A stretch of 64,000 nucleotides of DNA from a virus. Location of the stretch: positions 1 to 64,000 of IMG/VR virus record IMGVR_UViG_3300037475_000240; one strand, written 5' to 3'. Numbering within the stretch: position 1 is the first letter of the stretch; every line of letters begins with the position of its first letter. This document shows positions 8,780 through 51,420 of this stretch, piece by piece. The notes beneath the pieces are model-generated. The model made no database searches. It saw only the letters and a list, made by a program, of their open reading frames with translations, and had not been told where the DNA came from. A program made the position numbers and the translations under genes.

Positions 8780-9349
8780 TCAAATTTTATCTAAAAACAC
8801 TTTTTCTAATTTTTTCTTTTCTTTGCCAGTTTTATCATGATGATCTAATAAATCATCAACATAATTTTCTGCTTCATTTTCACCAAATTGATTTGCAATA
8901 TATTCAACTTGATTTTGAAAGCCTTCTTGTTCAAATTTATTATGTAAATAGTCTCCATCATCAGAACTTGTTGTTGCTTTTTTTCCCGCAGTTTGTTGCA
9001 GCCAATGAGTCATTTCATGAACACCATAAGAAAAATCTTTAAAAAAATCTCCATCAGTCAATAAACTATAATTAAATATAATTACACCATGATCTGTTTT
9101 AGCAGAAACATCAAGTTTACCAAACTTCATTGGAATTAAATCAATTTCTTCAATATCAACTTCATATTCCTTAAACATATTAAGAACAGTTTCATCTGTT
9201 TTTAAATATTCTCTCATCTTCTTAATCATGCGATTAAGTGATTTATAAGGCAATTTCTTGACTTGTGCCATACTTAAAGTTTTGTCTTTTTTTGCTTCTT
9301 TAGAAATCATGCTATTTATATGTAAAATTATTGCTTGAACAAACACCAT
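8780..9349 (-). CDS. Small HExxH zinc metalloprotease
   Basis: A 189-residue protein with a clear zinc-protease motif, GVHEMTHWLQQ (His111, Glu112, His115). The sequence NQVEYIANQFG about 35 residues later could supply Glu149 as the third zinc ligand, as in gluzincin-type peptidases. A positively charged helical region precedes it, and the C-terminus is acidic, then lysine-rich. There is no signal peptide. It stands alone, divergent from the gene at 9468. Met14 (start at 9310) is an alternative start, and neither start has a strong ribosome site. Possible substrates are host proteins or a virion precursor. The motif is secure; the target is unknown. Confidence 0.65.
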   Translation of the reverse strand: MVFVQAIILHINSMISKEAKKDKTLSMAQVKKLPYKSLNRMIKKMREYLKTDETVLNMFKEYEVDIEEIDLIPMKFGKLDVSAKTDHGVIIFNYSLLTDGDFFKDFSYGVHEMTHWLQQTAGKKATTSSDDGDYLHNKFEQEGFQNQVEYIANQFGENEAENYVDDLLDHHDKTGKEKKKLEKVFLDKI

Positions 9350-11162: not shown

Positions 11163-12191
11163 ATGGCTTTTTTGGGTGTCCGTATACCTTTAGAGATAGG
11201 AAGAATGCTAAATGTAATTGAGGTACCGGGGGTTAAAGAATCTCCTTCGGAATACCACATTACTATTCTTTTGTTTGATGACAACTGGCCAATTACAGAA
11301 GTGGCTAAAGCTCTTGAAGCGACGTATGATGTTGTTAACAAAGAAAAACCTTTCAATATTGAAATAAATAAAGTCACCAGTTTCCCTAAGGTGAAGGATA
11401 AACCTTTGCCTATTATTGCTCGTCTTACAAGCGAAGATTTACATAAACTTTCAGATAAACTTAGAGCTAAATTTGATGAAGAGGGCATTGATTATAAAAA
11501 ACACTTTAAAGATTTTAATCCTCATATTACATTAGCTTATGATCATGAATTAGAAAAGTTTGATGATATTAAGATTGAGCCCGTTAACTTTACTGTACAA
11601 GAAATTGTATTGTGGGGTGGTGACTATGGTGACAGTCGTTTGTTTGTTAATTTTCAATTAAAAAAACCTGAAAAACGTGCAGAATTATTGGCTAAAATAG
11701 AAGCTTATTATAAAACAGCTCAAATAAAAAATTATAAATATGATACTCATGCAGCTGATAGATTTTTAGAAATGTTTAATGGTGATGAAGAAGCTAAACA
11801 AGAAGAATTCAATCAATATGGTGGTTGGGGCAATTATTATTTTGATATTATTCCAATCAATGATATTGAAGATAAACCCATTTGGAGTCAAGAAAAATAT
11901 GATGCAGTACTTCAAAAAATGAAAGATGGAGTAGCATTAGATCCTATAAGAATTGCTCGTCCTGATAGTGTAGGTAAATTTGTTATTATAGATGGCATTC
12001 ATCGTATTGCTGCATCTAAAGAGTTAGGATATACTCATGTCCCTGCTCTAATAAATGACTGGATAACAACTCCGCCTCATCAAACTAAAATATCTTTATT
12101 TGATAAAATTAATATGTTCTATAAACTTGCGTTTATTGATCCAGATGGATATTTAACACCAAGTCGTAATCGAAGAAAAATTGAGCGCTGA
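11163..12191 (+). CDS. 2H phosphoesterase fused to ParB-like domain
   Basis: A 342-residue two-domain protein. The N-terminal half carries the two His-x-Thr motifs of 2H phosphoesterases, HIT at residues 32-34 and again at 121-123 (FNPHITLAY), spaced as in 2'-5' RNA ligase/cyclic phosphodiesterase proteins. Such enzymes open cyclic phosphates or cut 2'-5' and cyclic-oligonucleotide bonds; phage members include the anti-CBASS nuclease Acb1. The C-terminal half (about 255-300) contains PIRIARPD ... IDGIHRIAASKELGY, a ParB/sulfiredoxin-like fold signature. A linker carries YYKTAQ, a motif repeated in the virion proteins of this phage. The ribosome site is good. Both catalytic HxT motifs are intact; the substrate is unknown. 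Tail-like basic end RNRRKIER. Confidence 0.75.
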   Translation: MAFLGVRIPLEIGRMLNVIEVPGVKESPSEYHITILLFDDNWPITEVAKALEATYDVVNKEKPFNIEINKVTSFPKVKDKPLPIIARLTSEDLHKLSDKLRAKFDEEGIDYKKHFKDFNPHITLAYDHELEKFDDIKIEPVNFTVQEIVLWGGDYGDSRLFVNFQLKKPEKRAELLAKIEAYYKTAQIKNYKYDTHAADRFLEMFNGDEEAKQEEFNQYGGWGNYYFDIIPINDIEDKPIWSQEKYDAVLQKMKDGVALDPIRIARPDSVGKFVIIDGIHRIAASKELGYTHVPALINDWITTPPHQTKISLFDKINMFYKLAFIDPDGYLTPSRNRRKIER

Positions 12192-16574: not shown

Positions 16575-17435
16575 TTAAATACCATAGTTAGAAACAGCAT
16601 CAGAATAGCCCTTTTCTGCCATTTCTTTTAATTTTATAGGATCAAAGTCTAATAAATTTTCTGTAAGATTAAAATTCGGTCTTAAAATGTTAATTTTAAC
16701 ATATTTTTTGTCTATTAAACCGGCTTGTACTAATTTATTATACATTTCAACTTTTTCTAGATCATTTGACATTATTTTATCTGTACTAAGATCAATTACT
16801 CTTCTTAAAATGTCAACTATTGTAGGCTTTTTAATAAACTTTTTTATACGATTTTGTGGTGATGTAATAATAACATCTATTTCTGTTGCGCCTAAATCGA
16901 TAGCAGTCTTTAAAGGAGAAAGCTCTTTTAATCCACCATCTGACCATAATTGTCCATCAAATTCTATTGGAGTTAACATTCCAGGAAATGATGCACTTGC
17001 AACAACCGCATTAATAAAATAATTAGAATTTTGATCAAAAATTGTATATTTACCTGTACTTAATGACACCGCCCCCACAGCCACCTTTTTATTGCTATTT
17101 TTAATAGCATCTAATTTAATATTATTTCTAATTAATTCATTTAAAGGAGAACTATCATAAAAACTTGGTTTAAATAAGGCGTGCCATCTACCCCAAGGAA
17201 AATGTCTTTTATATATTTTTCGTGTATTTAATTGTAACCATAATTCATAAAGTTTGTTGCCTGCGGCATGTTCATGTCCTTGACAATATTGAGATAGAAA
17301 AGCAGCATTAATTGCACCAGCAGATACTCCACAAAATATATCATATTTAATACCAAGATCTCCTAATAAATATTTAATACAACCAGCTTGCCATGCACCT
17401 TTATTTCCACCACCCGATAAAACAAGAGCTTTCAT
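16575..17435 (-). CDS. Patatin-like phospholipase
   Basis: 286 residues from the preferred Met at 17435, which has a ggaag ribosome site 5 nt away; a Met four codons earlier (17447) is also possible. Patatin signatures are complete: the oxyanion-hole loop GGGNKG (8-13), the nucleophile elbow GVSAG with Ser38, and the catalytic Asp in SDGG (Asp166). Patatins are acyl hydrolases of membrane lipids. There is no signal peptide, so it acts in the cytoplasm or from the virion. A role in membrane damage, late lysis or lipid remodelling is inference. It begins where the GIY-YIG gene ends. Confidence 0.88.
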   Translation of the reverse strand: MKALVLSGGGNKGAWQAGCIKYLLGDLGIKYDIFCGVSAGAINAAFLSQYCQGHEHAAGNKLYELWLQLNTRKIYKRHFPWGRWHALFKPSFYDSSPLNELIRNNIKLDAIKNSNKKVAVGAVSLSTGKYTIFDQNSNYFINAVVASASFPGMLTPIEFDGQLWSDGGLKELSPLKTAIDLGATEIDVIITSPQNRIKKFIKKPTIVDILRRVIDLSTDKIMSNDLEKVEMYNKLVQAGLIDKKYVKINILRPNFNLTENLLDFDPIKLKEMAEKGYSDAVSNYGI

Positions 17436-18079
17436 ATATGCTTCCATGTTTTTCTAGTAATAATACGATAAATATTATCTTTTTTTAAACCAAATTTAAT
17501 TGCAATGTCATCATAAGTATATTTTCCTGTTTCATATTCTTTTCTTATTTGCAAAACTTGATTTTCAGTAATTTTAGCTTGTGGATTATTTTCTCCTCGT
17601 TGTTTTTTTGACATTTTTAATAAAGTTTCACTTGATCTTTTAAGTCCAAAATTAGGATTATTAATACCAGTATTTAATATTGATAATTTTTCTTTGGTCT
17701 CTTTTGAAATTTTTTTACCTAACATAGCTAATGATTTTTTAATAATAGTTTCAGGAGATGGTTTTAACCCACCTTTTCCGCCAGAAGTTAAATTATATCC
17801 TAAATTTCCGTTTTTAGAGTCTAAAAATTCAATGTACCATTCTTCAAAAAAATAAGCACTATCTTCTGTAATAAATTCTTTAATAATTTCAAATTGAAAA
17901 TTTTCTTTACCATATTTTTTAATTGCCTTATGTATTAAAGAATATTCATTTGGATATTTTTCTAAACTACCTGCAGCTACTTTCTTATGCTGCGCCCAGC
18001 GTTTGGAAGGATTATTAGTTTTACCTACATAAATTTTACCATTTATTAAATTTGTAATTAAATATACATAAAAAATCAT
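17432..18079 (-). CDS. GIY-YIG homing endonuclease
   Basis: 215 residues. The N-terminal nuclease domain has the GIY-YIG pattern (YVYLITNLINGKIYVGKT), the conserved Arg in SKRWAQH, and NLGYNLTSGGKGG. It is followed by NUMOD3-type short motifs (SPETIIKKS, SKETKEKLS, SSETLLKMS) and a C-terminal helix-turn-helix (YTYDDIAIKFGLKKDNIYRII) that would bind the target site. Intact and probably free-standing. It touches the patatin gene, so it may have inserted at that junction. Confidence 0.9.
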   Translation of the reverse strand: MIFYVYLITNLINGKIYVGKTNNPSKRWAQHKKVAAGSLEKYPNEYSLIHKAIKKYGKENFQFEIIKEFITEDSAYFFEEWYIEFLDSKNGNLGYNLTSGGKGGLKPSPETIIKKSLAMLGKKISKETKEKLSILNTGINNPNFGLKRSSETLLKMSKKQRGENNPQAKITENQVLQIRKEYETGKYTYDDIAIKFGLKKDNIYRIITRKTWKHI

Positions 18080-23997: not shown

Positions 23998-25227
23998 ATG
24001 GAAAAATTTAAAAATATAAATAACAAAGCTATACAAATCTGTCAAACTTTAAATCAATCTGGATTTCAAGGTTACATTGTAGGCGGATGTGTACGTGATT
24101 TACTTTTAGGAGTTTCTCCAAAAGATTGGGACATTTGCACTGATGCTAATCCAGAAAAAATAATGGAATTATTTCCAAAGCATTATCCAACTGGCTTGGA
24201 ACATGGCACTATTACCGTTGCTATGGGTGAAGGTGTGGAAAATCATTTTGAAGTTACTACTTTTAGAACTGAAGGCAAATATTTAGATGGTCGTAGACCT
24301 GAAAGTGTTTCTTTTGTTAAAAATATAAAAGAAGATTTGGCTCGAAGAGATTTAACTATTAATGCGATAGCTTTTGATCCTATTTCTGCGCAGCTTGTTG
24401 ATCCTTTTAATGGAATTAATGATCTAGAAAATAAAATAATTAAGTCTGTAGGTATTGCAGATGATCGATTTAAAGAAGATGGTTTAAGATTACTAAGAGT
24501 AGCTAGATTTGCAGCTCGTTTTGGCTATGAAATTGAAGAAAAAACATTTCAAGCTATAAAAAATAATAATAAGATGCTTAGATTAATTTCTAAAGAGAGA
24601 ATTAAAGATGAATTTTGTAAACTTTTACAAACCAAACATGCTTTTTATGGTTTAAATATATTAAAAGAAACTGGTCTTATTCATATTTTCTGTCGAACTC
24701 TTATGGGAAATTTTGATGATGATTTTCCTCCTGACATAACTAAATGTTTAGGAAATGTAGAAACAAAAATAGCTTTATTATATCATAAAGTTTATGATTG
24801 GAACGAAGCTGAACAAGATCTTATTGATTTAAAGTTTTCTAACAAAGAAATAAAGAAAATTATTTTTCAATTAAAACTTTTACATATGATTCATAATGAC
24901 TTTGATAAAGATTATTACATTTACTTTATATCATACTTGAAAAACAATAGCCCTGATCCTTGGGAATATACTTTAAATCAATTTATAACTTTAACTGATG
25001 CTCTTAATATCGATTTTAAATCATTAGTCGATCATCATAAATCAACTATAGTTTTTTCTAGAAAAGAATTGCAAATAAACGGTAATCATCTAATAGATTT
25101 AGGAATTAGATCAGGTCCTGAAATTAAATCTATATTAGACAAATGTTATTCTGAAATATTAAAAAATCCTGATAATAATAATTTGGATTCTTTACTTAAA
25201 TTTGTTGCATTTAATACTAAACAATAA
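23998..25227 (+). CDS. cca: CCA-adding/poly(A)-type nucleotidyltransferase
   Basis: 409 residues, class II tRNA nucleotidyltransferase/poly(A) polymerase layout. Motif A: GGCVRDLLLG (29-38) and DWDIC (Asp43, Asp45) for metal binding. Then RRDLTINAIAFD (117-128), followed by DGLRLLRVARFAARFG (161-176) of the neck. The C-terminal half is helical with an HD-domain-like region. Such enzymes add CCA or A residues to RNA 3' ends. Length is normal for bacterial CCA enzymes. The gene stands alone on the plus strand with its own promoter and terminator, so it is likely expressed separately from the late genes, possibly early, to keep or repair tRNA. A poly(A) role cannot be excluded from sequence. Confidence 0.85.
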   Translation: MEKFKNINNKAIQICQTLNQSGFQGYIVGGCVRDLLLGVSPKDWDICTDANPEKIMELFPKHYPTGLEHGTITVAMGEGVENHFEVTTFRTEGKYLDGRRPESVSFVKNIKEDLARRDLTINAIAFDPISAQLVDPFNGINDLENKIIKSVGIADDRFKEDGLRLLRVARFAARFGYEIEEKTFQAIKNNNKMLRLISKERIKDEFCKLLQTKHAFYGLNILKETGLIHIFCRTLMGNFDDDFPPDITKCLGNVETKIALLYHKVYDWNEAEQDLIDLKFSNKEIKKIIFQLKLLHMIHNDFDKDYYIYFISYLKNNSPDPWEYTLNQFITLTDALNIDFKSLVDHHKSTIVFSRKELQINGNHLIDLGIRSGPEIKSILDKCYSEILKNPDNNNLDSLLKFVAFNTKQ

Positions 25228-25288: not shown

Positions 25289-26299
25289 TTAGGCAACAGT
25301 TGTGCTCTTGCGTCCAGCAGCTACGCCACGTGGATTGACAATTGCAAGACCGATAATCTCAGAAACTACCCAACCGAGCTTCAATTGCTTTGGCTCATCA
25401 GCTGGTAAGACTTCGATGTCTTGACGAATTGGCATGACGCCTACGAACTCAGGGTCGGCCGCGCCGTAGATCGTACCAGGAGGAACGATCTTAGATACCA
25501 TAATGTCAGTTCCCCAGATGTGGGCATAAAGACCAGTTTGCAATACTTCACGCATTGTTACTGGATCGAAATCTCCACCGCTTGTTCCTTGACCACCACC
25601 AGAACCCCACTTAAGGATGTCTGTGAACTCAGAAATATTCATGAAGTACTTGGTTGTAACTAAGTCCCAACGATCAATTTGTTGTTTGATCTCAACTAAG
25701 TCTCTCTTCAAAAGACCAGCATCGGCAACGTCGGTGATGGTGTTTTCAACAGAGGCAGCAGCATCAAGGGCAGCAAAAATGTTAGCATCTTCTTGAGCCA
25801 TGATTTCTTGACGAGCCTTTTGAACGGCACGGTCAATAACGTTGAATCTGCGTCTTTTAACTTCAGCGATACGAACGGTTGGGTTTGCGAAAATCTCGAA
25901 CTCTGGTACTACGATACGATCACCGAATACGCGAGACTCTGGACCTGTTCCGTTTGAAGAAATTACGACGGCAGCAACGTCAATATCGCGCTCGTAAGTT
26001 GGGTTTGCACCTTGTGGCAATGGATCAACTACAAGGGCTCTACGTGCAATACCGTGGTAATCCAAGTTCTTACGAATTGGGTTTGCCATGGCTTGAGCTA
26101 ATGCTACTTTACCATCTTGTGTCATAATTGCGCGAGAAATAAGTTCATCACGCTTGTCGTCACTTACAGAAGGTTGTCCTGCAAGACCAGCATTGGCTGG
26201 CATATTCTCTTCTAAAATACTTGCATATTTAACTAATTGTGCAAGTGCATCTTTTAATGAAGAAGCATTAACTTCTCCGGATTTCGAAAACATATTCAT
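25289..26299 (-). CDS. Major capsid protein, HK97-like
   Basis: 336 residues from the Met at 26299, which has a perfectly placed ggag (6 nt before); an in-frame Met at 26338 would add 13 residues and lacks this. The N-terminal 55 residues (SSLKDALAQLVKYASILEEN) are helical and may be a propeptide. The body has features of HK97-fold capsids: YERDIDVAAVVISSNG, a spine-helix-like NVIDRAVQKARQEIMAQEDA and a C-terminal GWVVSEIIGLAIVNPRGVA. Codons are clearly richer in G and C than in most neighbours, as expected for the most abundant virion protein. It has its own candidate promoter (26354) and lies between two terminators. Confidence 0.85.
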   Translation of the reverse strand: MNMFSKSGEVNASSLKDALAQLVKYASILEENMPANAGLAGQPSVSDDKRDELISRAIMTQDGKVALAQAMANPIRKNLDYHGIARRALVVDPLPQGANPTYERDIDVAAVVISSNGTGPESRVFGDRIVVPEFEIFANPTVRIAEVKRRRFNVIDRAVQKARQEIMAQEDANIFAALDAAASVENTITDVADAGLLKRDLVEIKQQIDRWDLVTTKYFMNISEFTDILKWGSGGGQGTSGGDFDPVTMREVLQTGLYAHIWGTDIMVSKIVPPGTIYGAADPEFVGVMPIRQDIEVLPADEPKQLKLGWVVSEIIGLAIVNPRGVAAGRKSTTVA

Positions 26300-26353
26300 T
26301 TGTGTCTCCACTAAATTATTTGAAATTGTTGCCAGCAAAATACCAGCTGCACC

Positions 26354-27292: not shown

Positions 27293-28525
27293 TTACATTA
27301 AATTAGGAAAATCTTTTCCTAAATCTTCTAGATCTTTACTTAAGTCACTAGCCTCATTATCAACATCTTTGACTGACTTTTCTGGCGCAAAATGTTCTTG
27401 TGATTCGTTGGCAGCTTGCTCAAGTTCTTCTTTGGCTTTAGCTTGCATATTTTGAGCAGCAGCAAAAACTTTCAAAATTTCTTGAACTGATTGTTTATAT
27501 GGAGGAATTGCATTAGCAACATCCTCAAAATCATCAGCAATTAAGCCCTTTCCACCATGCAAAACTTCAGTTTTATCAATTAATGAAGTAAAAAATCCTT
27601 TATCTTGTACTTGTCTTGCTTTAAAGCTCTCAGAGGTGAAATTCTTTTGCATTTCATTAATAAGAGGAATCATATTGGCAAATAATTTTAATAAAGTATT
27701 ATATGCTTGTACTGCTTCTGTTCCAGCGGGTTTAGAAGCTAAATTCATTAACTCTTTAGCAGTCTTTGGTTTTTCAAAATCAGTAATAATAGATTTATTT
27801 TTTAAATAAGTAGTATAAAATTCTTCTAATTTATTAACAAAATTAGATACACTGTCAACAAATGGCTTTGTATAAGTAGTTCCTACACCAAAATTAGAAT
27901 TAGATGTTACAAAATCATTTAATTCAGATACTAATCTAGTATGATTTTGTTCATATCCACGATCTACATCTGGCAAATGTTGTTGTGCATAAATAGCACC
28001 AATTAAAGCCGGAACTCCCACAACTGCTGCCCAAGCTAGTGGAGCTAATGCTATTTTTTTAATGTTTTTATTAGCTACTTGAGCTAAACAAGTATCAGCC
28101 AATACTCTTAACTCATCTTGATTTACATTATCTAAATGGTTCCCTAAACTAACTAAACTTAAAACTAATTCTTGTTCAGCATATTTATGATTTGTTGATT
28201 GTCCATTAGTTGGTTTATTAACAATATGCAACATAATATTTTGTCTTTCAATATTATTTTCAACTAATCCATTTAATTTATCATAAGAGGGGGAGACAAT
28301 GGCATTACCTTCATGTGCAATTTCCATTATATTATGCTTATATTCCATACCTTTAGCGGTTTCAGGTTTAACATCATAAAGCTTTTCAATATCTTTAGCA
28401 GTTAAAGCACTCATTCTTGGATTTTTTTCCAAAGCAGCTTTGGCTTTCTCTGGAGCATCCTTAGAAATAAGTCCCTTTTCTTGTGCTATTTTGACAAAAC
28501 TTTCAAATATATCGCTTTTTCTCAT
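27293..28525 (-). CDS. Internal virion protein, helical
   Basis: 410 residues, mostly helical, with one hydrophobic segment (about 157-180, IALAPLAWAAVVGVPALIGA). It starts with FVKIAQEKGLISK, a sequence resembling the start of the protein at 32341 (LIKVAYEKGLIKE). Pieces of the middle also correspond: LNGLVENNIERQNIMLHIVNKPT here and ILDQHLKMVNVVNKKPTG there, so the two appear to be distant paralogues. The C-terminus is acidic. Likely an internal head or tail-lumen protein; function unknown. Confidence 0.65.
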   Translation of the reverse strand: MRKSDIFESFVKIAQEKGLISKDAPEKAKAALEKNPRMSALTAKDIEKLYDVKPETAKGMEYKHNIMEIAHEGNAIVSPSYDKLNGLVENNIERQNIMLHIVNKPTNGQSTNHKYAEQELVLSLVSLGNHLDNVNQDELRVLADTCLAQVANKNIKKIALAPLAWAAVVGVPALIGAIYAQQHLPDVDRGYEQNHTRLVSELNDFVTSNSNFGVGTTYTKPFVDSVSNFVNKLEEFYTTYLKNKSIITDFEKPKTAKELMNLASKPAGTEAVQAYNTLLKLFANMIPLINEMQKNFTSESFKARQVQDKGFFTSLIDKTEVLHGGKGLIADDFEDVANAIPPYKQSVQEILKVFAAAQNMQAKAKEELEQAANESQEHFAPEKSVKDVDNEASDLSKDLEDLGKDFPNLM

Positions 28526-29713: not shown

Positions 29714-31242
29714 TATTTAACTTTCAATACTTGATTTACTTTATTACTTAAAGATCTAATATATTCCATATTTCTTTGAGCCACAGAATTATCACTTTCA
29801 TTTCTTCCAACTTGTGAAAGAAGTGTAGTTTTAGCTGTGTCGCTCAATCTATTTCCATAAGCACTATAGAACTCTAAAATTAAACGACGAGTTAATCCGA
29901 CAATTTGTGACAATTTATCGGTAGCTGCCAAATAATTTCTATAATCTTTAAGACTATCAGCAAATTCATGAGGACCTACATTTGTAGAAAAGATAGCATC
30001 ACCATTACGTGTAAGATTCTTTAAATCCAAAATTCTTTTTGATAAATCTTGAATATAATTTTCCATTCTCATTCCTCTTTCACCGCTAGCTAAGACTTGT
30101 ACTTGTTCAATAAAATCAGAAATTTTATCGGTATTAATTTCTTGAATAGCTAAAGGTAAGGAATTAACAATTTTATAAACTTGTTGAACTACAGCGGCAT
30201 CAGCTGAACCAGAATCTGGTTTGTCACCACTTTTGCCGGTATTAAATCCAACAGGAATAATATCACTAGCAGATGGAGAAGTATAAGATGCAGCCACCAT
30301 ACAAGATTGTCCATTTGGACCAGTGAATGTTTGTCCAATTTCTTTTATCTTATTAATATAAAAATTATATTTCTTAGTATCTTCTGGAGAAGTAGCACGC
30401 GATTGTAATAAATTTTGAGCACGTTTAAATAATGTATTAACAATAACACATCTATCAGCATGTTCATCAGAATATTTTACTGAAGACTTCTTACCGTCTT
30501 TATCATAAATAATAACTTGTGCTTCTGGAGCTGCTAACATCCAAGCATTTAATGATTCTCTGCTCTTTAAATCTTTAGCAAATAATTGAGCACCACCACT
30601 ATCAGTAGACATTGATTTAGAGTCAAATACTTTATTTCCAAATCCATCAATTACTGTATTGTCTGGTAATTCATTAACAACTTGACCTGGAATAGATTTT
30701 GGTTTTCTAGATAATCCAGAATCTGGTTTAACTGAATTGACTTGATCAATTAATTTTCCAACCATAACACCTAATACTTTATTGTCTTCATCTTTTGCTT
30801 TATTTTGCAAATATCCGACATATTTAATTAGGGCAGGTAAATTAGTATAATAATCAGCTGTATTCCATTTTCTAGACTCAGCATCTCTAGATACATTTAT
30901 AGTAACTGGAGATAATTTATTTTGTTCAGCTTCTTGAAGGTTTTCACTTTCAGCTTGATCATAAACAACTCTTTCACCATTTATTTTGATTTGATTGGTG
31001 TCTAAAAATTGAAGTAAATTACCAATATTTTGTAAATTAGCCATACCTAAACCAACTGGTGTTGGAGAATCCGCTGTAACATTTGGGGCTTCCTCACCTC
31101 CACTAACTTCTCTTGATAATCTAGCAACTAATTTTTTAGCTACTTCTGTTGGATTACCAATGGGCGCTGGTGCTTGTTGAGCTTTTTTATTTAAAGCACT
31201 TGCTAATGTTTTTAAAATATCTTGTTCATATAAGAAAGTCAT
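29713..31242 (-). CDS. Internal virion protein of unknown function
   Basis: 509 residues, helical, charged. The N-terminus FLYEQDILKTLASALNKKAQ carries the hydrophobic-K-x-A-Q motif shared by other virion proteins. It is chained by TAATG overlaps to both neighbours, in a run of four genes (28577-33462) of similar size and composition. No catalytic motif is seen. Confidence 0.6.
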   Translation of the reverse strand: MTFLYEQDILKTLASALNKKAQQAPAPIGNPTEVAKKLVARLSREVSGGEEAPNVTADSPTPVGLGMANLQNIGNLLQFLDTNQIKINGERVVYDQAESENLQEAEQNKLSPVTINVSRDAESRKWNTADYYTNLPALIKYVGYLQNKAKDEDNKVLGVMVGKLIDQVNSVKPDSGLSRKPKSIPGQVVNELPDNTVIDGFGNKVFDSKSMSTDSGGAQLFAKDLKSRESLNAWMLAAPEAQVIIYDKDGKKSSVKYSDEHADRCVIVNTLFKRAQNLLQSRATSPEDTKKYNFYINKIKEIGQTFTGPNGQSCMVAASYTSPSASDIIPVGFNTGKSGDKPDSGSADAAVVQQVYKIVNSLPLAIQEINTDKISDFIEQVQVLASGERGMRMENYIQDLSKRILDLKNLTRNGDAIFSTNVGPHEFADSLKDYRNYLAATDKLSQIVGLTRRLILEFYSAYGNRLSDTAKTTLLSQVGRNESDNSVAQRNMEYIRSLSNKVNQVLKVK

Positions 31243-32339
31243 TAAAGTGCCTCAATTTTTGGTTTAATAACAGTATTGAAAATATGCCAAGCGCCTGCTT
31301 CATTAGGAATACCAGCATAATTTAACATCCACTTTAAAAATTCTTCTTTACTGCTTAAAGCTTTAAGAGGAACATAATGTAATTGTTTATCAGGTAAACG
31401 AGGAGCAGGGTAAACAATATTATCAACTTTAGTAATATCTGAATTAGCCATTTGTTGTTCAGTTGGATTTAAAGTTTCTTTATTTGATCCATGTTGATCA
31501 TATTTATCAAATGATCTTTTACCTTCAATAAATGGTCTAAATTCGGGACGAGCAATAACTTGTTGTCTAAATTCATTATACATTCTAGTTATTGCTTTAA
31601 GGTGCTTAGTAATTTTAGCAGCTTTTGTAGTTTTTTCTTCTGCAGATAAATCTACTACATTTCCTTCAACACGATATCCTGATAAAGTGTTTTTAAAATC
31701 AGTCCAGTTTGAAGAATTATAAATATGATTATCTAAACCAAAGTCTCCTTCAATTTGAAGAAGAGCATAAGCAAAGCCTAGCATATTTTTTAATGCATTA
31801 TTAGTTCTCCAGTCCCAATTACCATCAGCTTTAAATTCGCTTTTTTCTGAACCAATTCTGCTAAGAGTATTCATAACAACATCAAGCTCATAAATATCAG
31901 TTTGTGTTTTATGTTTATCAGGATGAGTTACGACTTTAGAATCTTTATTCCACTCAACACCTTTATTACTTTCATCTAAACCACCCATATATTGTTCAGC
32001 AATAAAATCATTGAAAGATTTTTTAGATTGTTGTACTGGCTGAGCTGCCTCTTGATGTACTACATCTTTGTTTTTTAATGACATAGTGGCAGAATTGGCA
32101 TCATGCATAACAGATTCAGCAAGATCTTGCATAGCAAGTTGCATCTCTCTAACAGCAGGATTAGATGGTCCTTTTACTGGACCCCTAACAGATGGCTTTG
32201 CATCAGTTGGTGTATTTTTATGAAAGAATGAGTTTTGTGGTGGAACTATTCCAGCAGCTGGTGCAGTTGGAGCTTTAGATCCAGGTACTGCCGCCAATTT
32301 CTCAATTTCTTCTTTCAAATTCTTTAAGTTATTTGTCAT
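31242..32339 (-). CDS. Internal virion protein of unknown function
   Basis: 365 residues. The N-terminus is helical (NLKNLKEEIEKLAAVPG), followed by a P/A-rich linker, then a soluble mixed domain (DWRTNNALKNMLGFAYALLQ) and a compact C-terminus (FLKWMLNYAGIPNEAGAWHI). IEKLAA is a variant of the recurrent h-K-x-A site. It overlaps the next gene by one base. No family is recognised. Confidence 0.6.
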   Translation of the reverse strand: MTNNLKNLKEEIEKLAAVPGSKAPTAPAAGIVPPQNSFFHKNTPTDAKPSVRGPVKGPSNPAVREMQLAMQDLAESVMHDANSATMSLKNKDVVHQEAAQPVQQSKKSFNDFIAEQYMGGLDESNKGVEWNKDSKVVTHPDKHKTQTDIYELDVVMNTLSRIGSEKSEFKADGNWDWRTNNALKNMLGFAYALLQIEGDFGLDNHIYNSSNWTDFKNTLSGYRVEGNVVDLSAEEKTTKAAKITKHLKAITRMYNEFRQQVIARPEFRPFIEGKRSFDKYDQHGSNKETLNPTEQQMANSDITKVDNIVYPAPRLPDKQLHYVPLKALSSKEEFLKWMLNYAGIPNEAGAWHIFNTVIKPKIEAL

Positions 32340-32340
32340 A

Positions 32341-33462
32341 TTAACCTAACCAAGCTTTAAAACCAGCAAATGAGTCATCACTACCATCAGGATCTTTTGC
32401 GGTCTCAACTCCCTTTAATCTTGTAATGAAAACTTCAGCATTGCTTAGCTTTTGTTCATCATTTTCCATTCTATCAAAATTATCTTTAACAAATTTAATT
32501 TCATTTGCTTTTTTATCAATCCACTTTAAGCCTTCAGCTTTATCTGCTTGCGATTTTGCTAAAATTGGAACTCTGGCGCGCCATGCTGACAAGATGTCAT
32601 TTAGTCTTTTATATTCAATGTTAAATTGATCTATTAAACTAGTAGAAGCGGCTGGAGCAGGAGCCTTTAAAGCTTTTAATGCACTAGAAGTAAATCTCTT
32701 TAAATTATTAAAATGAGGAAGCATACCTTCCCAAGTTACTTCATCAACACCACCAAGTAATGTTCCTAACATACCTGATTTTAAATCACTCATTGATTTA
32801 TCTGCAAGAGTTAAAACGTATTTTAAATTATCTTCGCTTGGATCATTTTGAGCTTCAGTTACTGCAGGTAATAATTTTTGCGTAGCCTGAGATCTCGGTC
32901 TTTCGATCCAACTAATATCATTAAACTTAGCACTAATATTAGTTGCAGCTTTTAACATTTCTTGTAAAGAAGTTTTTAAATCTACTTGTTGTGCAACTAC
33001 ATTTTTAACTGCTTTTAAAATATCTAAACTTGTTGCAAGTTTACCTGTTGGTTTTTTATTTACAACATTAACCATTTTTAAATGTTGATCTAAAATTGTT
33101 TCAACAACAGCATCGCCTTCAATATCAGAAATCTTATGTGAACCATCTGGATGAGCCATATCAATGACATCTTCTCCAGTTTCACCATGAGCATCATAAA
33201 GATGTGCTGCTCGTTTATAATCAACAAATTTACCTTCTAATTCATTGGCTGCCTTTTCAAGACCCAATGTTCTTAGACCGGCACAAAGAGTAAGAACATT
33301 TTCCATTAAATTACCAGAAATAGTGTAATTTTGGTTTTTATTAATTGTTGAAGCTGTTTTAACCATTGAAGGCTCTTCTTTAATTAGACCCTTTTCATAC
33401 GCTACCTTTATAAGTGAACGTCCTATAGAAGAATCTTCAAGTTTAACATGTTTATAAGTCAT
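32341..33462 (-). CDS. Internal virion protein, helical
   Basis: 373 residues. The N-terminus (IGRSLIKVAYEKGLIKEEPS, then MVKTAS) resembles the start of the protein at 27293. Around residues 45-70 is ENVLTLCAGLRTLGLEKAAN, a copy of the helical L-x-GL-x-K-AA motif found in several virion proteins here. The rest is helical with two or three long helices. It has a gagg ribosome site and its own candidate promoter at 33490. Likely an internal head component. Confidence 0.6.
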   Translation of the reverse strand: MTYKHVKLEDSSIGRSLIKVAYEKGLIKEEPSMVKTASTINKNQNYTISGNLMENVLTLCAGLRTLGLEKAANELEGKFVDYKRAAHLYDAHGETGEDVIDMAHPDGSHKISDIEGDAVVETILDQHLKMVNVVNKKPTGKLATSLDILKAVKNVVAQQVDLKTSLQEMLKAATNISAKFNDISWIERPRSQATQKLLPAVTEAQNDPSEDNLKYVLTLADKSMSDLKSGMLGTLLGGVDEVTWEGMLPHFNNLKRFTSSALKALKAPAPAASTSLIDQFNIEYKRLNDILSAWRARVPILAKSQADKAEGLKWIDKKANEIKFVKDNFDRMENDEQKLSNAEVFITRLKGVETAKDPDGSDDSFAGFKAWLG

Positions 33463-35975: not shown

Positions 35976-36671
35976 TTATTTTTTAGCTTTGTCTTTAGCT
36001 GCTTTATCTTTAGCAGCCTTTTCTTTAGCGGCTTTTTCTTTCTCTTTTTCCTTCTCTTTTTCCTTAGCAAGCTTCTCTTTTTCTTTAGCAGCTTTTTCTT
36101 TCTCTTTATCTTTAGCTGCCTTATCTTTAGCAGATTGAGAATCCTTAGCAGCTTTCTCTTTTGCTTTTTCTTTAGCGGCTTTTTCTTTTTCCTTGGCAGC
36201 CTTCTCTTTATCTTTATCCTTATCTTTCTTCTTAGCTTCAACAACTAAAGAAGCAATCTTAAGGCTTAAAGCGGCAGTTTTTTCCATACCAAGATTATCT
36301 AAGGCGGCAGATGCAGTTAACAAGCTGTCAATAGCAACATCAAAGCCTGCAGAAGCATCTAAGTCATCAGCACTTGAAGAATCACTGTCACTTGAAGAAT
36401 CATCTTTTTCAAAATTATATTTCTTCTTTTTAGCATCATTATCATCAGCACTTGAAGAATCGCTGGAAGAAGATTCTTCCTCTTCTTTTTCTTTCTTCTT
36501 GCGTGCATCGTTATCATCTGCTAATGAACAATCCTCTTCTTTATGATCGGAAGCAAGCAACTCATCTGAAGCAGTCTTGTAATGAGTTCCGAATAGTGTA
36601 TTATGAGCTTCACTCTTTAATACTGCATCCATTGTTGCGGCAACAAAATCTGATACGCTGTTATTTTTCAT
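35976..36671 (-). CDS. Acidic/Ser then Lys-Ala repeat protein
   Basis: 231 residues in three parts: a helical N-terminus (VSDFVAATMDAVLKSEAHN, then HYKTAS), an acidic serine-rich region (SSSSDSSSADD, DSSSDSDSSSADDLD), the recurrent helical motif (LLTASAALDNLGMEKTAA), and a C-terminal 80 residues of K, A, E, D only (KEKAAKEKEK type). The last part is a long charged single helix or a DNA-binding tail. It may be an internal head protein packed with the DNA. The gagga ribosome site is good. A reading frame in the Lys-rich DNA at 35963-36244 is a shadow of it. Confidence 0.6.
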   Translation of the reverse strand: MKNNSVSDFVAATMDAVLKSEAHNTLFGTHYKTASDELLASDHKEEDCSLADDNDARKKKEKEEEESSSSDSSSADDNDAKKKKYNFEKDDSSSDSDSSSADDLDASAGFDVAIDSLLTASAALDNLGMEKTAALSLKIASLVVEAKKKDKDKDKEKAAKEKEKAAKEKAKEKAAKDSQSAKDKAAKDKEKEKAAKEKEKLAKEKEKEKEKEKAAKEKAAKDKAAKDKAKK

Positions 36672-36684
36672 ATGTCCTCGTTAA

Positions 36685-39600
36685 TTAAAAGTTTCTTTTG
36701 TTAGAGGTGGAAAGTGCAGAAGATAATTGACTAAACAAGTCACCTTCATCAGCTGCAGTATTTACTTCACCAGAACCAATCATACCAACTTGAGGCATAC
36801 GACCGGCAGTTTTGACATTGTGTTTAGCTACTACTCTCTTAAGTGAATCAAAAGAGTTATCATTAAAGTTCATTATTTCTTCGACTTGAGCATCAACAGA
36901 AGCTCTGTCATCTAAACATAAACCACGAGCAACCATGTCATAAGCTAATCCATAAGCTCTACCTAATTTGACTTTATAGGTATTAAGCTCTTGTTCTAAG
37001 GCAGCTTTAGTGTGCTCTTTAACAAGTTCACTTGCAAACTCAGAACCACCATCAACTTGACTGTAGAATTTCTTGTAATAAGAAACTGCATCTTTATCCA
37101 AACCTTCAGCAACAAGTGCATCTAAGTCTGTTACATCCAATTTGCCTTCAGAAACTAATTTGTGAATAGCTTCAGCTTCTTTACGAACCTTTGGAGGAGC
37201 ATTAGCTAAGTCCATCATAGCATCATGAATCTCTTCAAGATCTTCAACTTTAGCTAAATCACCAGTTGGCTTGACATCAAGTTGTGTGGTGAAACCGCCC
37301 TTTGGATGAGCATCATGTAGAAGTGGGCTCACTTTAAGAGTATCAGCAGCTAATTTGGCACGAAGAACAGCGCGTCCCTCTTTACTGTCAAAATCAGCGG
37401 AAGCTACTACGTGAACTTCAGTCCCTGGCTTAACTTCAAGGTTCTTAAGTTCTTCTGGTTTTGCATCTAAATCATTATCATCTGATAATTCTTCTAATTC
37501 ATCAAGAGCAGACTCATCTTCAAGTGCTCCATCAACATCGCAGTCCTCATCAAGCATATCTTTTGCTGCATCTAAGTCAGCATTAGTGTCTTGGATAAGA
37601 CTCATTAAATCGTCACTTGAGTGACTATCATGTTCATCGTTCATAGAATCTCCCTCGGCTAATGCCTCAAGTTCAGCCTCAAATTGTGCACGCTTGACAA
37701 TAGCTTTAGTTCCACGAGCATATTTGACAAATGCACTTAGTAAATTAAATCCTTCTCCAACAGCAGTCTTGGCTTCCTTAATAACATCATCAGATACTGC
37801 TGCAACTAAATCAGCATTAGAAGCAGAAACTGCATCTTTATCATATAATCCTGTAATAAGATTAAGCTCTTCTTGATGTTGATCTAATTCAGCAATTACT
37901 TCTTTCATTGCAGTTGTTAATGCAGAATTAAGTTCTTTTCTAATTGTAGTTAATGATCCTGAAGCTGCTGTAGCCATTCCATTATCTACATCACCCATCT
38001 CAGCTTGTTCGCCAGTTAAGGCTCTAACTGCCTCAACTAAATCAGAACTTAAATCTCTTACTTTTTCAGAAAGTTCAGTTACGTTAGCTTTTGGATCGCC
38101 TTCTGCACCTGTATCTTCAGCTGGAGCTGCCCCCATATCTGGTGACGCTGGAGCTGGTTCTGCTGCTGGTTCAGCGGCAGGAGGTGGCATCTCTTGAGCA
38201 CTCTTAACTAAGCTACGTACTTTATCAGCACCTTGTACTTTAATTTTTTCAATTAACTTAGATCCGAATTCTTTGGTTGCAATACTGTCATACAACATTT
38301 CTGCACGTTGACCAGAAAGATCATTAACAGAAGCTGTTAACAAAAGTTTGTCACCCAAGAATACTTCCCACGCACTTTTACCAATATTTTGTGTACCATC
38401 AGCATTAGCGGCTTTAACAAATCTAGCTCTTAAAGATGCTCTTTGTAGTAATTCTTTACGTTTCTTTTCATCAGCAATATCAGCTGAATCTGGACTTGGA
38501 TGCAATCCATCAACAGATCCAACACCTGGGAATGGTTTTTGACCAACCATGTGTTTATCTTCGTGATCGCGAAGTTGATCATTCAATTTCTCAGCCGGAT
38601 ATTTTACTTTACCTGGAGTTGGCTCATTAACACCGCCACCACCTTGAAAATAAGCTTCTTTGCTCTTAAGAGCATCTTTAGCTAAACCAAGAATAGCTGT
38701 GCGACGCATAGCTCTCTCTTCGGAAGTTGCACGAGCTAACATTTTTTTGCGCTCTAACTCAGACATAGGAACGGAATCAACGCCTGGGTGCATTCCATCA
38801 ACAGGACCCATATCTTGAGCCTGCATATGTTTATCCTCATGATCACGAACTTTTTCGTTCATTGGATCTGCTGGATATTGTTTTTGGCCGGGTTTTGGCT
38901 CTTCGGTACCTTGGAAATAACCCTTTTTATTAAGTTCTGTTCCTGACATATTTTCCTCTTGTGTGTTTGAATTATTTGCTAACTTATCTAAACTTACCTT
39001 CATTTGACTCAACTTTTCTTCAATCACCTTAGTTACATCACGAAGTTCTTGAATAGATTCTGTTTCTAAGTTAGCAGAAGCGTATCTTTCGTGTGGTGGA
39101 GCCAATCCTGAATCTGTGTTTGGGTCTGCGGAATTTTCCATCGCAATAGAACCCGACGATTGATTAAATGCAAGATCATTAGTATCTTTTTCAGAAATAT
39201 TTGCAGAGGCTTGAATCTCTTGTAACTTCTGAAAAGCATCTTCCATATCAATCTTAAATTTATTTAAATCTGAAGCATCAATAGTAATTTCTGAAACCTT
39301 ATTATCTTTGCCAGCTCCATCACTAACTGTAATTTTGCCACAAAAATGCTGTTCTGAAATCTTTTTTAATTCATTAGATTTACTTTCTACATATGAATTA
39401 AGAGTATTTGCTGCTGCAATAATGTGCTTAATATTAGCTTTTGGATCTGCCCCATTTACAACAATAGATAATTCTATTGGATTTAAATCTACGTTAATTT
39501 CACCATAACCAGATTTTCTTCTCATATGGTCACAGAAATCTTGTTCTGTTTTAGCAACAACAGCACAATCACTACAAATTGCTTTGCCAACAGCTGTACC

Positions 39601-40152
39601 CATTGATACACAGTTAGAAACACCAGTAGATACTTGTCTTGCTAATTGAGGATATCCTGCTTTATCTAAAGCACATAAAGCAATAACTCTCTTTAAATTA
39701 CGATCATAATATGTATCAACAATAAAACCTCTTACGTGGTCTACTGAACTTGATTTATGATCCACACAAAGAGGCTTTCCTACCCATTTTTTATAAGCTT
39801 TTACTAATTCTTCTTCCGGAAAAATATCTCCATTAGAATTTCTATAAGGTTTAACAGAACTATCAGTTGTTGTCCAGCGCCAAGTTCCACCAGATTTATT
39901 CCAACCTACTTGAACTGGTTCACCTTTTACAGTGAGACGTGGAGTTCCATCATCATTAAGAGCAGCTGCTTCAGCAGCATGCATCATAACAGCAGAGAAA
40001 TATAAAAAGTCTTCTGCTTTTGGTGCTATTTTCTTAAGATTAGTAGCAAATTTTCTAAAATTATCTAATATTTCCGGACTAACAGCTGGAAGACAGGAGT
40101 CTGTATTCTCTACTCTGCTAATCTCTATTAATTCACCAAGTTTAACAAACAT
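36685..40152 (-). CDS. Prohead serine protease fused to scaffold
   Basis: 1155 residues. The N-terminal 210 residues look like a prohead maturation protease: His132 in CVDHKSSSVDHVRG and Ser183 in SNCVSMGTAVG, in the order used by these proteases; a Cys/His cluster (ICSDC, FCDHM) may bind zinc. The remaining 900 residues are helical and acidic, typical of scaffold, and include an internal duplication (about 415-495 and 505-590) built around RDHEDKHM and VDGMHP or VDGLHP, plus LVKSAQ and IVKRAQ sites. It has a gggag ribosome site. The protease would process capsid and internal proteins and then the scaffold. Role by family analogy; catalytic residues inferred. Confidence 0.7.
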   Translation of the reverse strand: MFVKLGELIEISRVENTDSCLPAVSPEILDNFRKFATNLKKIAPKAEDFLYFSAVMMHAAEAAALNDDGTPRLTVKGEPVQVGWNKSGGTWRWTTTDSSVKPYRNSNGDIFPEEELVKAYKKWVGKPLCVDHKSSSVDHVRGFIVDTYYDRNLKRVIALCALDKAGYPQLARQVSTGVSNCVSMGTAVGKAICSDCAVVAKTEQDFCDHMRRKSGYGEINVDLNPIELSIVVNGADPKANIKHIIAAANTLNSYVESKSNELKKISEQHFCGKITVSDGAGKDNKVSEITIDASDLNKFKIDMEDAFQKLQEIQASANISEKDTNDLAFNQSSGSIAMENSADPNTDSGLAPPHERYASANLETESIQELRDVTKVIEEKLSQMKVSLDKLANNSNTQEENMSGTELNKKGYFQGTEEPKPGQKQYPADPMNEKVRDHEDKHMQAQDMGPVDGMHPGVDSVPMSELERKKMLARATSEERAMRRTAILGLAKDALKSKEAYFQGGGGVNEPTPGKVKYPAEKLNDQLRDHEDKHMVGQKPFPGVGSVDGLHPSPDSADIADEKKRKELLQRASLRARFVKAANADGTQNIGKSAWEVFLGDKLLLTASVNDLSGQRAEMLYDSIATKEFGSKLIEKIKVQGADKVRSLVKSAQEMPPPAAEPAAEPAPASPDMGAAPAEDTGAEGDPKANVTELSEKVRDLSSDLVEAVRALTGEQAEMGDVDNGMATAASGSLTTIRKELNSALTTAMKEVIAELDQHQEELNLITGLYDKDAVSASNADLVAAVSDDVIKEAKTAVGEGFNLLSAFVKYARGTKAIVKRAQFEAELEALAEGDSMNDEHDSHSSDDLMSLIQDTNADLDAAKDMLDEDCDVDGALEDESALDELEELSDDNDLDAKPEELKNLEVKPGTEVHVVASADFDSKEGRAVLRAKLAADTLKVSPLLHDAHPKGGFTTQLDVKPTGDLAKVEDLEEIHDAMMDLANAPPKVRKEAEAIHKLVSEGKLDVTDLDALVAEGLDKDAVSYYKKFYSQVDGGSEFASELVKEHTKAALEQELNTYKVKLGRAYGLAYDMVARGLCLDDRASVDAQVEEIMNFNDNSFDSLKRVVAKHNVKTAGRMPQVGMIGSGEVNTAADEGDLFSQLSSALSTSNKRNF

Positions 40153-40436: not shown

Positions 40437-41090
40437 TCACTCACCAAGCTGTGACTTCTCCTTTATTATATCGTTTAATTGATTTTGTCTTTTATTAAAC
40501 AAGTCTAAAATCAATGGAGTCTTTTTTTCTATCTTCATTTGAATTTCATCTCCAACAGTATCAACCCAACTAGTGGCTAAAATATTGTTTTGAATATGTC
40601 TTTTAATTCTTTCTTCAACAATTTCTTCAATATCATGACATTCAGATTGAATATCTTCAATATTTTTAACTATATTTGGAGCAAAATCTTTTGATTCTAA
40701 ATCATTAAATAAATCACTAAATTTATTTACATTATATTCTAAATCATCTATTGATGCAATGAAAGATTTAATTAATTTTACGGTTTGAGTATCAAAGGAG
40801 AAACTCTGCATAGCATTAACGCATTTAAATGCTGCTTTTTTAAATTCATTAAAATTTTCAATAGATTTATCTCTAAATCTTCTAAGAGCAGCACGTGCTT
40901 TCATTACATCATCTTCACTCATTCCAGGATTATCCTTGAAAGGAGTTTTCATGATATCTAAATGATCGGCTGATAAATGAAGTAATTTCAAAGAATGATT
41001 AAAAAATACAAGCGCACGGGATGCTTGGATTTTCTCCACATCCGAAACTTCATATGTCATATTGACTATATATGCTTTTTTCTTAATCAT
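40437..41090 (-). CDS. Helical protein of unknown function
   Basis: 217 residues, almost wholly helical (FRDKSIENFNEFKKAAFKC, DLEYNVNKFSDLFNDLES, DIEEIVEERIKRHIQNNIL). No enzyme motif. It overlaps the phosphatase gene by 8 nt. Likely a structural or assembly factor in the head operon. Confidence 0.55.
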   Translation of the reverse strand: MIKKKAYIVNMTYEVSDVEKIQASRALVFFNHSLKLLHLSADHLDIMKTPFKDNPGMSEDDVMKARAALRRFRDKSIENFNEFKKAAFKCVNAMQSFSFDTQTVKLIKSFIASIDDLEYNVNKFSDLFNDLESKDFAPNIVKNIEDIQSECHDIEEIVEERIKRHIQNNILATSWVDTVGDEIQMKIEKKTPLILDLFNKRQNQLNDIIKEKSQLGE

Positions 41091-41838
41091 GGATAAATCC
41101 GCCTACACTTTCACTTGGACCAGCACCAGCAATACCAGCACTATTATCATATTGTCCTACTTGAGGTATATGAGAAGTCACTAAAGAATGTTCTTTTATT
41201 GGTTTATCCATATAATTTTCACGAGTTGGACTTTGATTATTTATAGTACTATAAACTGGATCGTCCCGATCCATTAAATTTTTGCCCATATAAGCTTCAA
41301 AAGATGATCTATTAGCTTCATCTAAAAATGAATCTCTACTGTCTCCAGTATATTCTCTTTCATTAGAAACTATATCTGCATTATTATTATCTGTATTAGG
41401 TTTCGATGCCCTAATTAATTTTTCAAAAATATTAATATATTTAGGATCTACTCCAACACCAAACCCCAGCATTTTGGCTTCTTTAATAGCTTCTTCGGGA
41501 TCTTTACCTTTATATTTACATTCATATAAAGCTACTACAAGACCCGTTCTATCTTTTCCATGCCAACAATGAATAAATGTTGGTCCACCATTGATTAATA
41601 AGTCTTTTAAATCATAAGACATTAAATTAATTAATGATTGCATTGTGCCATCTAAAGGAATTACTACTTGTTTAATATTTAGTAATTTACAGGTATTTGC
41701 AATTTGATCTGCAGCTGCCTGATCTAAACTAACAATTTTATTAATACCATATTTTTCTTTTAGATATTGAACGTCTTTAGGACTTGGCGCCGATCCTCTG
41801 TATAATCCATTGTCCACTTGAATGAACTTGGAAATCAT
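41083..41838 (-). CDS. Dual-specificity phosphatase-like protein
   Basis: 251 residues. The N-terminal 150 carry the phosphatase loop HCWHGKDRTG (nucleophile Cys91, Arg97), the HCx5R of tyrosine/dual-specificity phosphatases. NGLYRGSAPSPKDV is typical of the N-terminus of this family. The C-terminal 100 residues are polar and disordered, ending SESVGGFIHD. No transmembrane segment. It sits among head and portal genes, which suggests that it is made late or carried in the virion. Substrate unknown: protein, phosphoinositide or RNA 5' phosphate are all possible. Confidence 0.8.
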   Translation of the reverse strand: MISKFIQVDNGLYRGSAPSPKDVQYLKEKYGINKIVSLDQAAADQIANTCKLLNIKQVVIPLDGTMQSLINLMSYDLKDLLINGGPTFIHCWHGKDRTGLVVALYECKYKGKDPEEAIKEAKMLGFGVGVDPKYINIFEKLIRASKPNTDNNNADIVSNEREYTGDSRDSFLDEANRSSFEAYMGKNLMDRDDPVYSTINNQSPTRENYMDKPIKEHSLVTSHIPQVGQYDNSAGIAGAGPSESVGGFIHD

Positions 41839-50832: not shown

Positions 50833-51420
50833 TTAAAATGATATATTATCGAACAAAGTGTTACCAGAATCGGTTATTCCATAGTCAGCAGACCTATCGC
50901 TAATAGTTTTATCAGCATCTAATTCTGCAGGGTCCATGCCATCTGGAAGTCCTAACAAAGGTGTCTGAGTGGGTCTAATGACCTTCTCTAATTTTTCTTC
51001 TATATTTTTTGGATCAGATTCATCATTTTGATAATCCCTTCCAAAATCCAATTTATCTGGACTTTTATCTTCTTGATCATTAAATGGAAGATATTCATCA
51101 GCAATTCCACCAAATGGTAAAGAAACCTGTATTATACCTGATTCATCAGGAGTAATAGGATTTTTTATTGATTCATCTAAAGGAAAATCAATAGCTTGCT
51201 TTAAAATTGCTTTTAATATTTTTATCCTTAAAGCAGCTTTCTTTTTCCCCTTATTTCTTTTTCTTTTCTTTTTAAGAAAATCAGCTACACTTTTGTATTT
51301 ACTCATATTTTGATAAAGACCGGCACCTGGACCAGTATTATTTTCATATAGATCGTAATTTTTAAATAGAGGCTCATCAAAACGTGCTTTATCTAATTCA
51401 TGATTTTTATTTTTTGGCAA
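50833..51420 (-). CDS. Small charged protein, TTG start
   Basis: 195 residues. The only start near a ribosome site is TTG at 51420; it is preceded by a perfect AAGGAGGT with 4-nt spacing, located inside the end of the nucleotidyltransferase gene. FLKKKRKRNKGKKKAALRIK is a strongly basic patch; the rest is acidic, and there is a short beta region (IIQVSLPFGGIADEYL). No family recognised. It may be an assembly or DNA-binding protein. Confidence 0.55.
   Translation of the reverse strand: MPKNKNHELDKARFDEPLFKNYDLYENNTGPGAGLYQNMSKYKSVADFLKKKRKRNKGKKKAALRIKILKAILKQAIDFPLDESIKNPITPDESGIIQVSLPFGGIADEYLPFNDQEDKSPDKLDFGRDYQNDESDPKNIEEKLEKVIRPTQTPLLGLPDGMDPAELDADKTISDRSADYGITDSGNTLFDNISF

Follow-up and report, generated by a model that had tools for sequence, protein, structure and literature searches.

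A 2H phosphoesterase with an inserted ParB-like module: a possible packaged effector of phage-G-like huge phages

Results

The 2H-ParB gene and its neighbourhood

The window, a stretch of 64,000 nucleotides contained in a 126,875-bp virus record (G000), carries an open reading frame without interruption whose translation, P0001, is 342 amino acids long. Its features, all on the plus strand, are the following.

11163..12191, +: whole gene, laid out as 2H domain, site, ParB-like module, site and basic tail (homologue with the same layout; dN/dS)
11163..11657, +: 2H phosphoesterase domain, residues 1-165 (PF13563/PF02834 above cut-off, AlphaFold, Foldseek)
11256..11264, +: first HxT motif, H32-I33-T34 (26-member family alignment, H32 and T34 invariant)
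11523..11531, +: second HxT motif, H121-I122-T123, then L124-A125-Y126 (family alignment)
11706..11723, +: site 1, YYKTAQ (KIEAYYKTAQ), residues 182-187, candidate head-protease site (aligned with the F-x-K-[LI]-A of homologues)
11724..12095, +: ParB/Srx-like insertion together with its N-terminal helices, residues 188-311 (two records only)
11850..12062, +: ParB_N/Srx core, residues 230-300 (profiles, model of residues 186-326, Foldseek)
11991..12014, +: DGIHRIAA nucleotide-pocket motif (GxxR), residues 277-284 (aligned to SerK, Noc and ParB)
12117..12134, +: site 2, FYKLAF (KINMFYKLAF), residues 319-324, candidate site (sequence)
12135..12188, +: conserved basic C-terminal tail IDPDGYLTPSRNRRKIER, residues 325-342 (family tail query)

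The translation places both HxT motifs, YYKTAQ and DGIHRIAA exactly at the residues given for them in the original prediction, and the claim that a 2H enzyme is fused here to a ParB-like domain is backed for both halves by profiles, AlphaFold and Foldseek. What that prediction overlooked is the second site and the C-terminal tail, the latter common to homologues that have no ParB-like module. We regard the fusion as real because a second phage (G001, a 447,763-bp contig) encodes a full-length homologue of 81% identity and identical architecture and because purifying selection acts on both the 2H half and the ParB half. Between the two proteins dN/dS (Nei-Gojobori) is 0.107 for the 2H segment, 0.125 for the ParB segment and 0.114 for the tail, low values from which we conclude that all parts of P0001 are maintained. 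An assembly chimera was ruled out as the source of the fusion, as the same fusion occurs in two records that are 19% apart at the protein level. A tblastn search with P0001 against 50,697 phage records returned nothing at E<=0.01, and relaxed limits added only weakly similar proteins, 57B of the T4 type and gp240 of phage G; PADLOC gave no match.

The same gene block encodes the major capsid protein, a head maturation protease, the portal and the large terminase, and the closest named relative of the capsid protein is that of Bacillus phage G (54% identity). In other loci the order is p545(-), a zincin-like gene(-), the 2H gene(+) and p299(-), with small genes interspersed; the 2H gene lies on the strand opposite to the late virion genes. 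The zincin-like gene of the window is:

8780..9349, -: zincin-like metallopeptidase candidate, HEMTH ... E (HExxH in relatives, synteny, 12/15 records)

In relatives this gene is upstream of the 2H gene and divergent from it, and the HExxH motif and the downstream glutamate are kept in those that were read, while neither Pfam nor PHROG matched the protein. One clade has a sigma-70-like sequence, TTGACA-17-TA(A/G)GAT, just upstream of the 2H gene (10/12 matches in 7/25 loci versus 4.6% of shuffles). A AAATAGTCATA-type motif is conserved between the zincin-like and 2H genes of L013, L017, L018, L022, L024, L026, L027 and L041. It is not a general promoter in G000; the conserved ATAGTCATA motif upstream of the 2H gene in relatives was rejected as a general late promoter when tested.

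Several other genes of the region were recorded in passing. A CCA-adding enzyme (23998-25227, +) sits inside the virion block on the 2H gene's strand and has strong matches in 11/15 related records, and a second, divergent nucleotidyltransferase with a PolyA_pol head lies near the terminase (51407-52180, -), with weaker similar matches in several of them. A patatin-like phospholipase (16575-17447, -; PF01734, 2.1e-30) is found among the tail-region genes and a protein like the tyrosine/dual-specificity phosphatases (41083-41838, -; PF03162, 8e-10) in the head gene cluster. At the end of the G000 record, a calcineurin-like phosphatase and an ATP-grasp RNA ligase lie close together (125217-125933 and 126250-126858, -). 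ARAGORN reports a tRNA with a CTA anticodon (named tRNA-Pyl) at about 108597-108672 on the minus strand of G000 (L006 4596-4671), a possible amber suppressor, close to two tRNA-Thr genes; of the 143 G000 ORFs that are 100 aa or longer, 3 end in TAG, all of them outside the window.

The 2H domain

Sequence and model together indicate that the fold and active site of the 2H half are intact. P0001 matches 2_5_RNA_ligase2 (PF13563) at E=3.6e-12, with 47 bits against a cut-off of 27, and LigT_PEase (PF02834) at 3e-11, also above cut-off. Across the 26-member family alignment H32, T34, H121 and L124 are invariant, T123 and Y126 are kept in at least 90%, and a MAFxG start and W151 are conserved as well. 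The AlphaFold model of the domain has pLDDT mostly above 90 and shows the bilobal 2H fold with both HxT motifs that marks the superfamily. Structure prediction and structural search, which had been proposed as a check on this half, thus recovered the 2H fold; the CPDases of T. thermophilus (TtCPDase) and D. radiodurans (drCPDase) and E. coli LigT come out on top in Foldseek (2e-10 to 1e-7), whereas Acb1 ranks far lower (5e-5).

Which family the enzyme belongs to is less clear-cut. Its score against TIGR02258 falls short of the equivalog cut-off (43 versus 65.7 bits), and the arginine that follows the second HxT of E. coli ThpR (HITLLR) is replaced in P0001 by Tyr126. On the other side, the Acb1 profile of Pfam (PF23474) matches P0001 at E=1.8e-4 with 21.7 bits (23.7 for the domain alone) against a cut-off of 27; T4 Acb1 scored 202.7 bits, the relative L041 scored 41.7 and so passed the cut-off, and E. 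coli ThpR, the control, gave no match. Every one of the 26 family members hits the Acb1 profile with E<=0.01 (best 2.2e-10) and, at relaxed limits, TIGR02258 as well. The HxT/HxT tetrad of Acb1 is present in P0001. Acb1 is known to stack bases on Y12, W74, F107 and W147 and to use E141 and a lid (PMC9117128); in our alignment F3, F74 and F115 of P0001 align with Y12, W74 and F107, and no clear counterpart appears for the lid, E141 or W147. P0001 is not a proven Acb1, to judge from its score below the Acb1 cut-off and a modelled fold closest to ThpR/LigT. We read the 2H half as an enzyme standing between the ThpR/LigT and Acb1 families, probably acting on an RNA-type substrate.

Two rival explanations draw on these data. 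According to the first, P0001 is not packaged but expressed early as an Acb1-like counter-defence enzyme that breaks down cyclic oligonucleotide signals, with the ParB-like half as an NTP-sensing or ligand-binding accessory and the KxA segments as helical linkers. The family-wide Acb1 matches with none for E. coli ThpR, the Acb1-type second motif, the tyrosine in place of the ThpR arginine, the three aromatics that align with base-stacking positions and the promoter-like site of one clade are all consistent with this, but the sub-threshold score of P0001, the missing alignment for lid, E141 and W147, and the wide lead of ThpR/LigT/CPDase folds over Acb1 in Foldseek (2e-10 versus 5e-5) weigh against it, and we consider it unlikely, if the strongest of the rivals. 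According to the second, to which we give somewhat less credence still, the enzyme would serve RNA repair by opening the 2',3'-cyclic phosphates that host anticodon nucleases leave on RNAs (tRNAs), which would then receive CCA or be ligated. That the closest folds and profiles are RNA 2',3'-cyclic phosphodiesterases speaks for it, as do the CCA-adding enzyme in the same gene block of most of the phages, an RNA ligase over its family cut-off in 8/15 records and the metallophosphatase beside the ligase of G000. That ligase, however, is about 114 kb away, and a ligase was not found in 6/15 records (some of them fragments); polyvalent-type phage 2H domains do not associate with RNA ligases (Iyer et al., PMC5512222); the shortfall against the TIGR02258 equivalog cut-off applies here too; and the ParB-like module is left with no role.

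The ParB-like module

Profile evidence for the second half is weaker than for the first. Pfam ParB_N matches at E=2.7e-4 with 21.3 bits, below its 26.3 cut-off, and NCBIfam ranks the serine kinase SerK first (5.6e-7, well short of that model's cut-off), with ParB next. Because the full-length AlphaFold model left the ParB half without confidence, residues 186-326 were modelled alone from 13 sequences. This model, of moderate confidence (core pLDDT about 70-88), has an E-H-E-E-H-E core in the ParB/Srx strand-helix order, and with it Foldseek matched Noc, ParB, SerK and Srx structures at E values down to 1.7e-5, so that the ParB-like fold looked for in the second half was indeed found. The glycine and arginine of GxxR are invariant across the alignment with distant ParB-like modules; the module thus combines the alpha+beta core with the GxxR pocket that mark the ParB/Srx fold. 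Used as a query, it found no close viral relative beyond G001, and a looser search brought in unrelated ParB-like proteins that served only to deepen the alignment.

The weak similarity to ParB_N and TIGR00180 might suggest a true ParB that acts in partition or segregation of the phage DNA. We think this highly improbable: P0001 has only the N-terminal fold of about 75 aa, an N-domain-sized module followed directly by site and tail, and lacks the helix-turn-helix and dimerisation domains that a partition ParB has, on which ground partition-ParB identity was rejected; in addition, SerK outscores partition ParB (29 versus 19.3 bits) and ParB_N has no other match in G000 or G001. ParB folds serve generally as NTP-binding modules and in phages are often joined to enzymes (PMC12704722), and from the modelled fold it is plausible that the module of P0001 binds nucleotide. 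The suggestion that this half supplies substrate or nucleotide binding is thus plausible in its nucleotide part; the 2H domain stands alone in most relatives, which shows that it does not need the ParB half.

Relatives and the insertion point

Profile searches yielded 30 loci, mostly on huge-phage contigs of up to 512 kb. The ParB-like module is confined to P0001 and its G001 homologue; the other full-length homologues were found without it. Most of these ParB-less proteins continue after the 2H domain with an F-x-K-[LI]-A segment and then a basic tail (LTPSxERRKIER; for example GNPLQDYLTPSKERRKIER), and P0001 ends in the same tail (SRNRRKIER): a 28-aa family tail query matched the P0001 C-terminus in G000 at E=1.3e-4. 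With this query no match outside the 2H family was found in 15 records, so that a general signal borne by other proteins was not found there. Given that the module lies upstream of the family tail with one site on either side, the fusion is not a simple C-terminal addition. No convincing DNA repeat flanks the insertion, and for this reason the second site does not look recently duplicated.

Some relatives depart from the common plan. L028, although syntenic, has neither site nor tail; L030-L032 and L034, also syntenic, have the site and lack the basic tail; and L033, L036 and L037, next to which none of the neighbouring genes was found, are likewise without site and tail. Apart from these, L038-L040 (5001-5243) contain a 2H gene truncated after about residue 73 with homing-endonuclease-like ORFs adjoining, and the record that holds L038 (G013) gave no 2H match. 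L085 (22-6066) has a viral open frame of 2015 aa, cut at the locus end, with a ParB-like KELGYTH module, a candidate polyvalent protein.

KxA sites in head proteins

The linker sequence YYKTAQ had been described as being of the same type as sites in the virion proteins. This likeness is real: head proteins conserve such sites near their N-termini, and P0001 has two copies, one on each side of the ParB-like module. The motif [FYILMVH]-x-K-[LTIVFY]-A was compared over 31 orthologue groups of G000, G001 and the syntenic G007. It occurs 23 times in G000; 11 of these occurrences are conserved in all three phages, 8 of the 11 within the first 45 residues. The reversed motif occurs 11 times, with 3 conserved and none near an N-terminus, and in controls with K or A substituted no more than 4 sites were conserved and no more than 2 lay near an N-terminus. 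A first version of the motif, which differed slightly, had 14 matches in the 25-60 kb head region where 5.8 were expected; in the record's other half it was not in excess (2 versus 4.2 and 4 versus 3.2 expected). As the motif was defined after P0001 had been seen, these statistics should be taken as indicative only. Several of the motif-bearing proteins are only 22-43% identical over the three phages; conserved examples are SFVKIAQ, EIEKLAA, SLIKVAY, GFNKLAK, THYKTAS and, in the capsid protein, LVKYAS. The head genes concerned are:

25289..26338, -: major capsid protein, N-terminal extension with LVKYAS (PHROG major head protein 1.9e-79; motif 3/3)
27293..28525, -: head-cluster protein, N-terminal SFVKIAQ (motif 3/3, protein only 39% identical in three phages)
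31242..32339, -: head-cluster protein, N-terminal EIEKLAA (motif 3/3, 22% identical)
32341..33462, -: head-cluster protein, N-terminal SLIKVAY (motif 3/3, 24% identical)
35976..36671, -: head-cluster protein with THYKTAS (motif 3/3)
36685..40152, -: 1155-aa protein with a head maturation protease domain, candidate cutter (PHROG E=1.3e-14, residues 105-213)

The N-terminal extension of the capsid protein is absent from the capsid protein of phage G. In T4 and in giant phages, the head protease is known to cut off targeting peptides at protein N-termini (PMC5694885), and the pattern described here supports, though it does not prove, a role of the KxA motif as a head-targeting or cutting signal. 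The 1155-aa protease protein has several conserved F-x-K-[x]-A sites of its own, and for that reason may itself be a polyprotein.

Discussion

We propose that P0001 may be a two-module effector of phage-G-like huge phages that is packaged, cut and delivered with the DNA, a proposal to which we assign about an even chance. The ancestor would have been a 2H phosphodiesterase on its own, with an F-x-K-[LI]-A segment and a short basic tail behind it, and in the lineage of P0001 a nucleotide-binding module of the ParB/Srx fold would have been added between enzyme and tail, leaving a site on each side. If the sites are head-targeting and processing signals, P0001 could be packed into the prohead, where the head maturation protease would separate the 2H enzyme from the ParB-like protein and trim away the tail, to be discarded; the 2H enzyme and the ParB-like protein would enter the host along with the DNA. 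There the 2H part would hydrolyse an RNA-type phosphodiester by HxT/HxT acid-base catalysis. As its substrate we narrowly favour a host nucleotide immune signal, with a 2',3'-cyclic-phosphate RNA end nearly as likely, and the ParB-like part would bind an NTP. A more specific version holds that phage-G-like huge phages load enzymes into the capsid by means of a common F-x-K-[LI]-A processing signal, in the 2H family joined by the C-terminal basic tail, and that P0001 is a capsid-matured cargo polyprotein split by the head protease into an anti-nucleotide-immunity 2H enzyme and an NTP-binding enzyme of the ParB fold; this we put forward tentatively, as clearly less probable than the general proposal.

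In favour of packaging, besides the KxA sites shared with head proteins, are: (i) the strict synteny of the 2H gene with virion genes and the zincin-like gene and (ii) the absence of site and tail from the relatives that fall outside it (L033, L036 and L037). Against it are: (i) the orientation of the 2H gene relative to the late virion genes; (ii) the promoter-like site of one clade, which fits ordinary early expression as well; (iii) the F-x-K-[LI]-A segment, which can equally be a plain amphipathic-helix pattern and (iv) the syntenic relatives that lack the tail (L030-L032 and L034) or both tail and site (L028). Furthermore, a C-terminal targeting tail would be unusual, as the targeting sequences of T4 are N-terminal (PMC5694885).

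There is precedent for delivery of such proteins. Polyvalent proteins join unrelated conflict domains, often 2H or ParB, and are encoded near virion genes; 2H domains occur fused to MuF or portal proteins; and the ParB protein DdrB of P1 undergoes processing and is packaged in the phage head (Iyer et al. 2017, PMC5512222). P0001 shares with this group the presence of unrelated conflict-type domains in one polypeptide encoded next to virion genes. In Gordonia phage GMA6 (L094 5324-13003) a portal-MuF gene is followed by genes for 2H, ADP-ribosyltransferase-type and HNH proteins, and the genes behind the portal look like an effector cluster. It is on account of the polyvalent-protein precedents and this cluster that we prefer delivery with the DNA. 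A GMA6 protein, the top BFVD match with a long alignment, was considered as a homologue of the fusion and discarded, being a 2H protein without a ParB domain.

Should the packaged-effector proposal be true, capsid cargo would be recognisable by an address and cut signal across many uncultivated huge phages, the sequence alone would suffice to list other injected effectors, and P0001 would be a case of a phage adding a second enzyme by insertion between such signals. On a more modest reading, the result is a conserved 2H family intermediate between the RNA phosphodiesterases and the anti-CBASS enzyme Acb1, occurring in most of the sampled phages of the phage-G-like lineage.

Comparison with known systems

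With the ThpR/LigT enzymes (TtCPDase, 1iuh; drCPDase, 5h7e; E. coli LigT, 5ldm) P0001 shares the 2H fold across the whole domain, the two HxT motifs and the C-terminal strand pair (Foldseek 2.3e-10); it differs in having only about 20% identity, in missing the TIGR02258 equivalog cut-off, in Y126 for arginine and in its extra C-terminal site, module and tail. With Acb1 (T4 gp57B; PDB 7t26) it has in common the HxT/HxT tetrad and the second motif [FY]xD[YF]xPH[IV]TL[AS]Y, and the alignment suggests aromatics at three of the four base-stacking positions, whereas its score is below the Pfam cut-off, the lid, E141 and W147 are not alignable and its C-terminal strands are longer and ThpR-like. The closest named phage relative by profile is the 2H protein gp240 of Bacillus phage G (43 bits; rank 2 in a further search), but gp240 is a stand-alone 2H protein with no tail, KxA site or ParB module.

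The orphan ParB/Srx fold on a phage enzyme resembles the ParB-CTPase-fold fusions of Kaljevic et al. 2025 (PMC12704722), although the main text of that study names no phosphoesterase or phosphodiesterase. Like the polyvalent proteins (P1 DdrB; the 2H-MuF and 2H-portal fusions), P0001 has conflict-type domains beside virion genes and a zincin peptidase, but it is small (342 aa) and the peptidase is a separate gene. DdrB is a ParB-fold protein that is processed and packaged in P1, as P0001 may be; the P0001 module resembles SerK and Noc.
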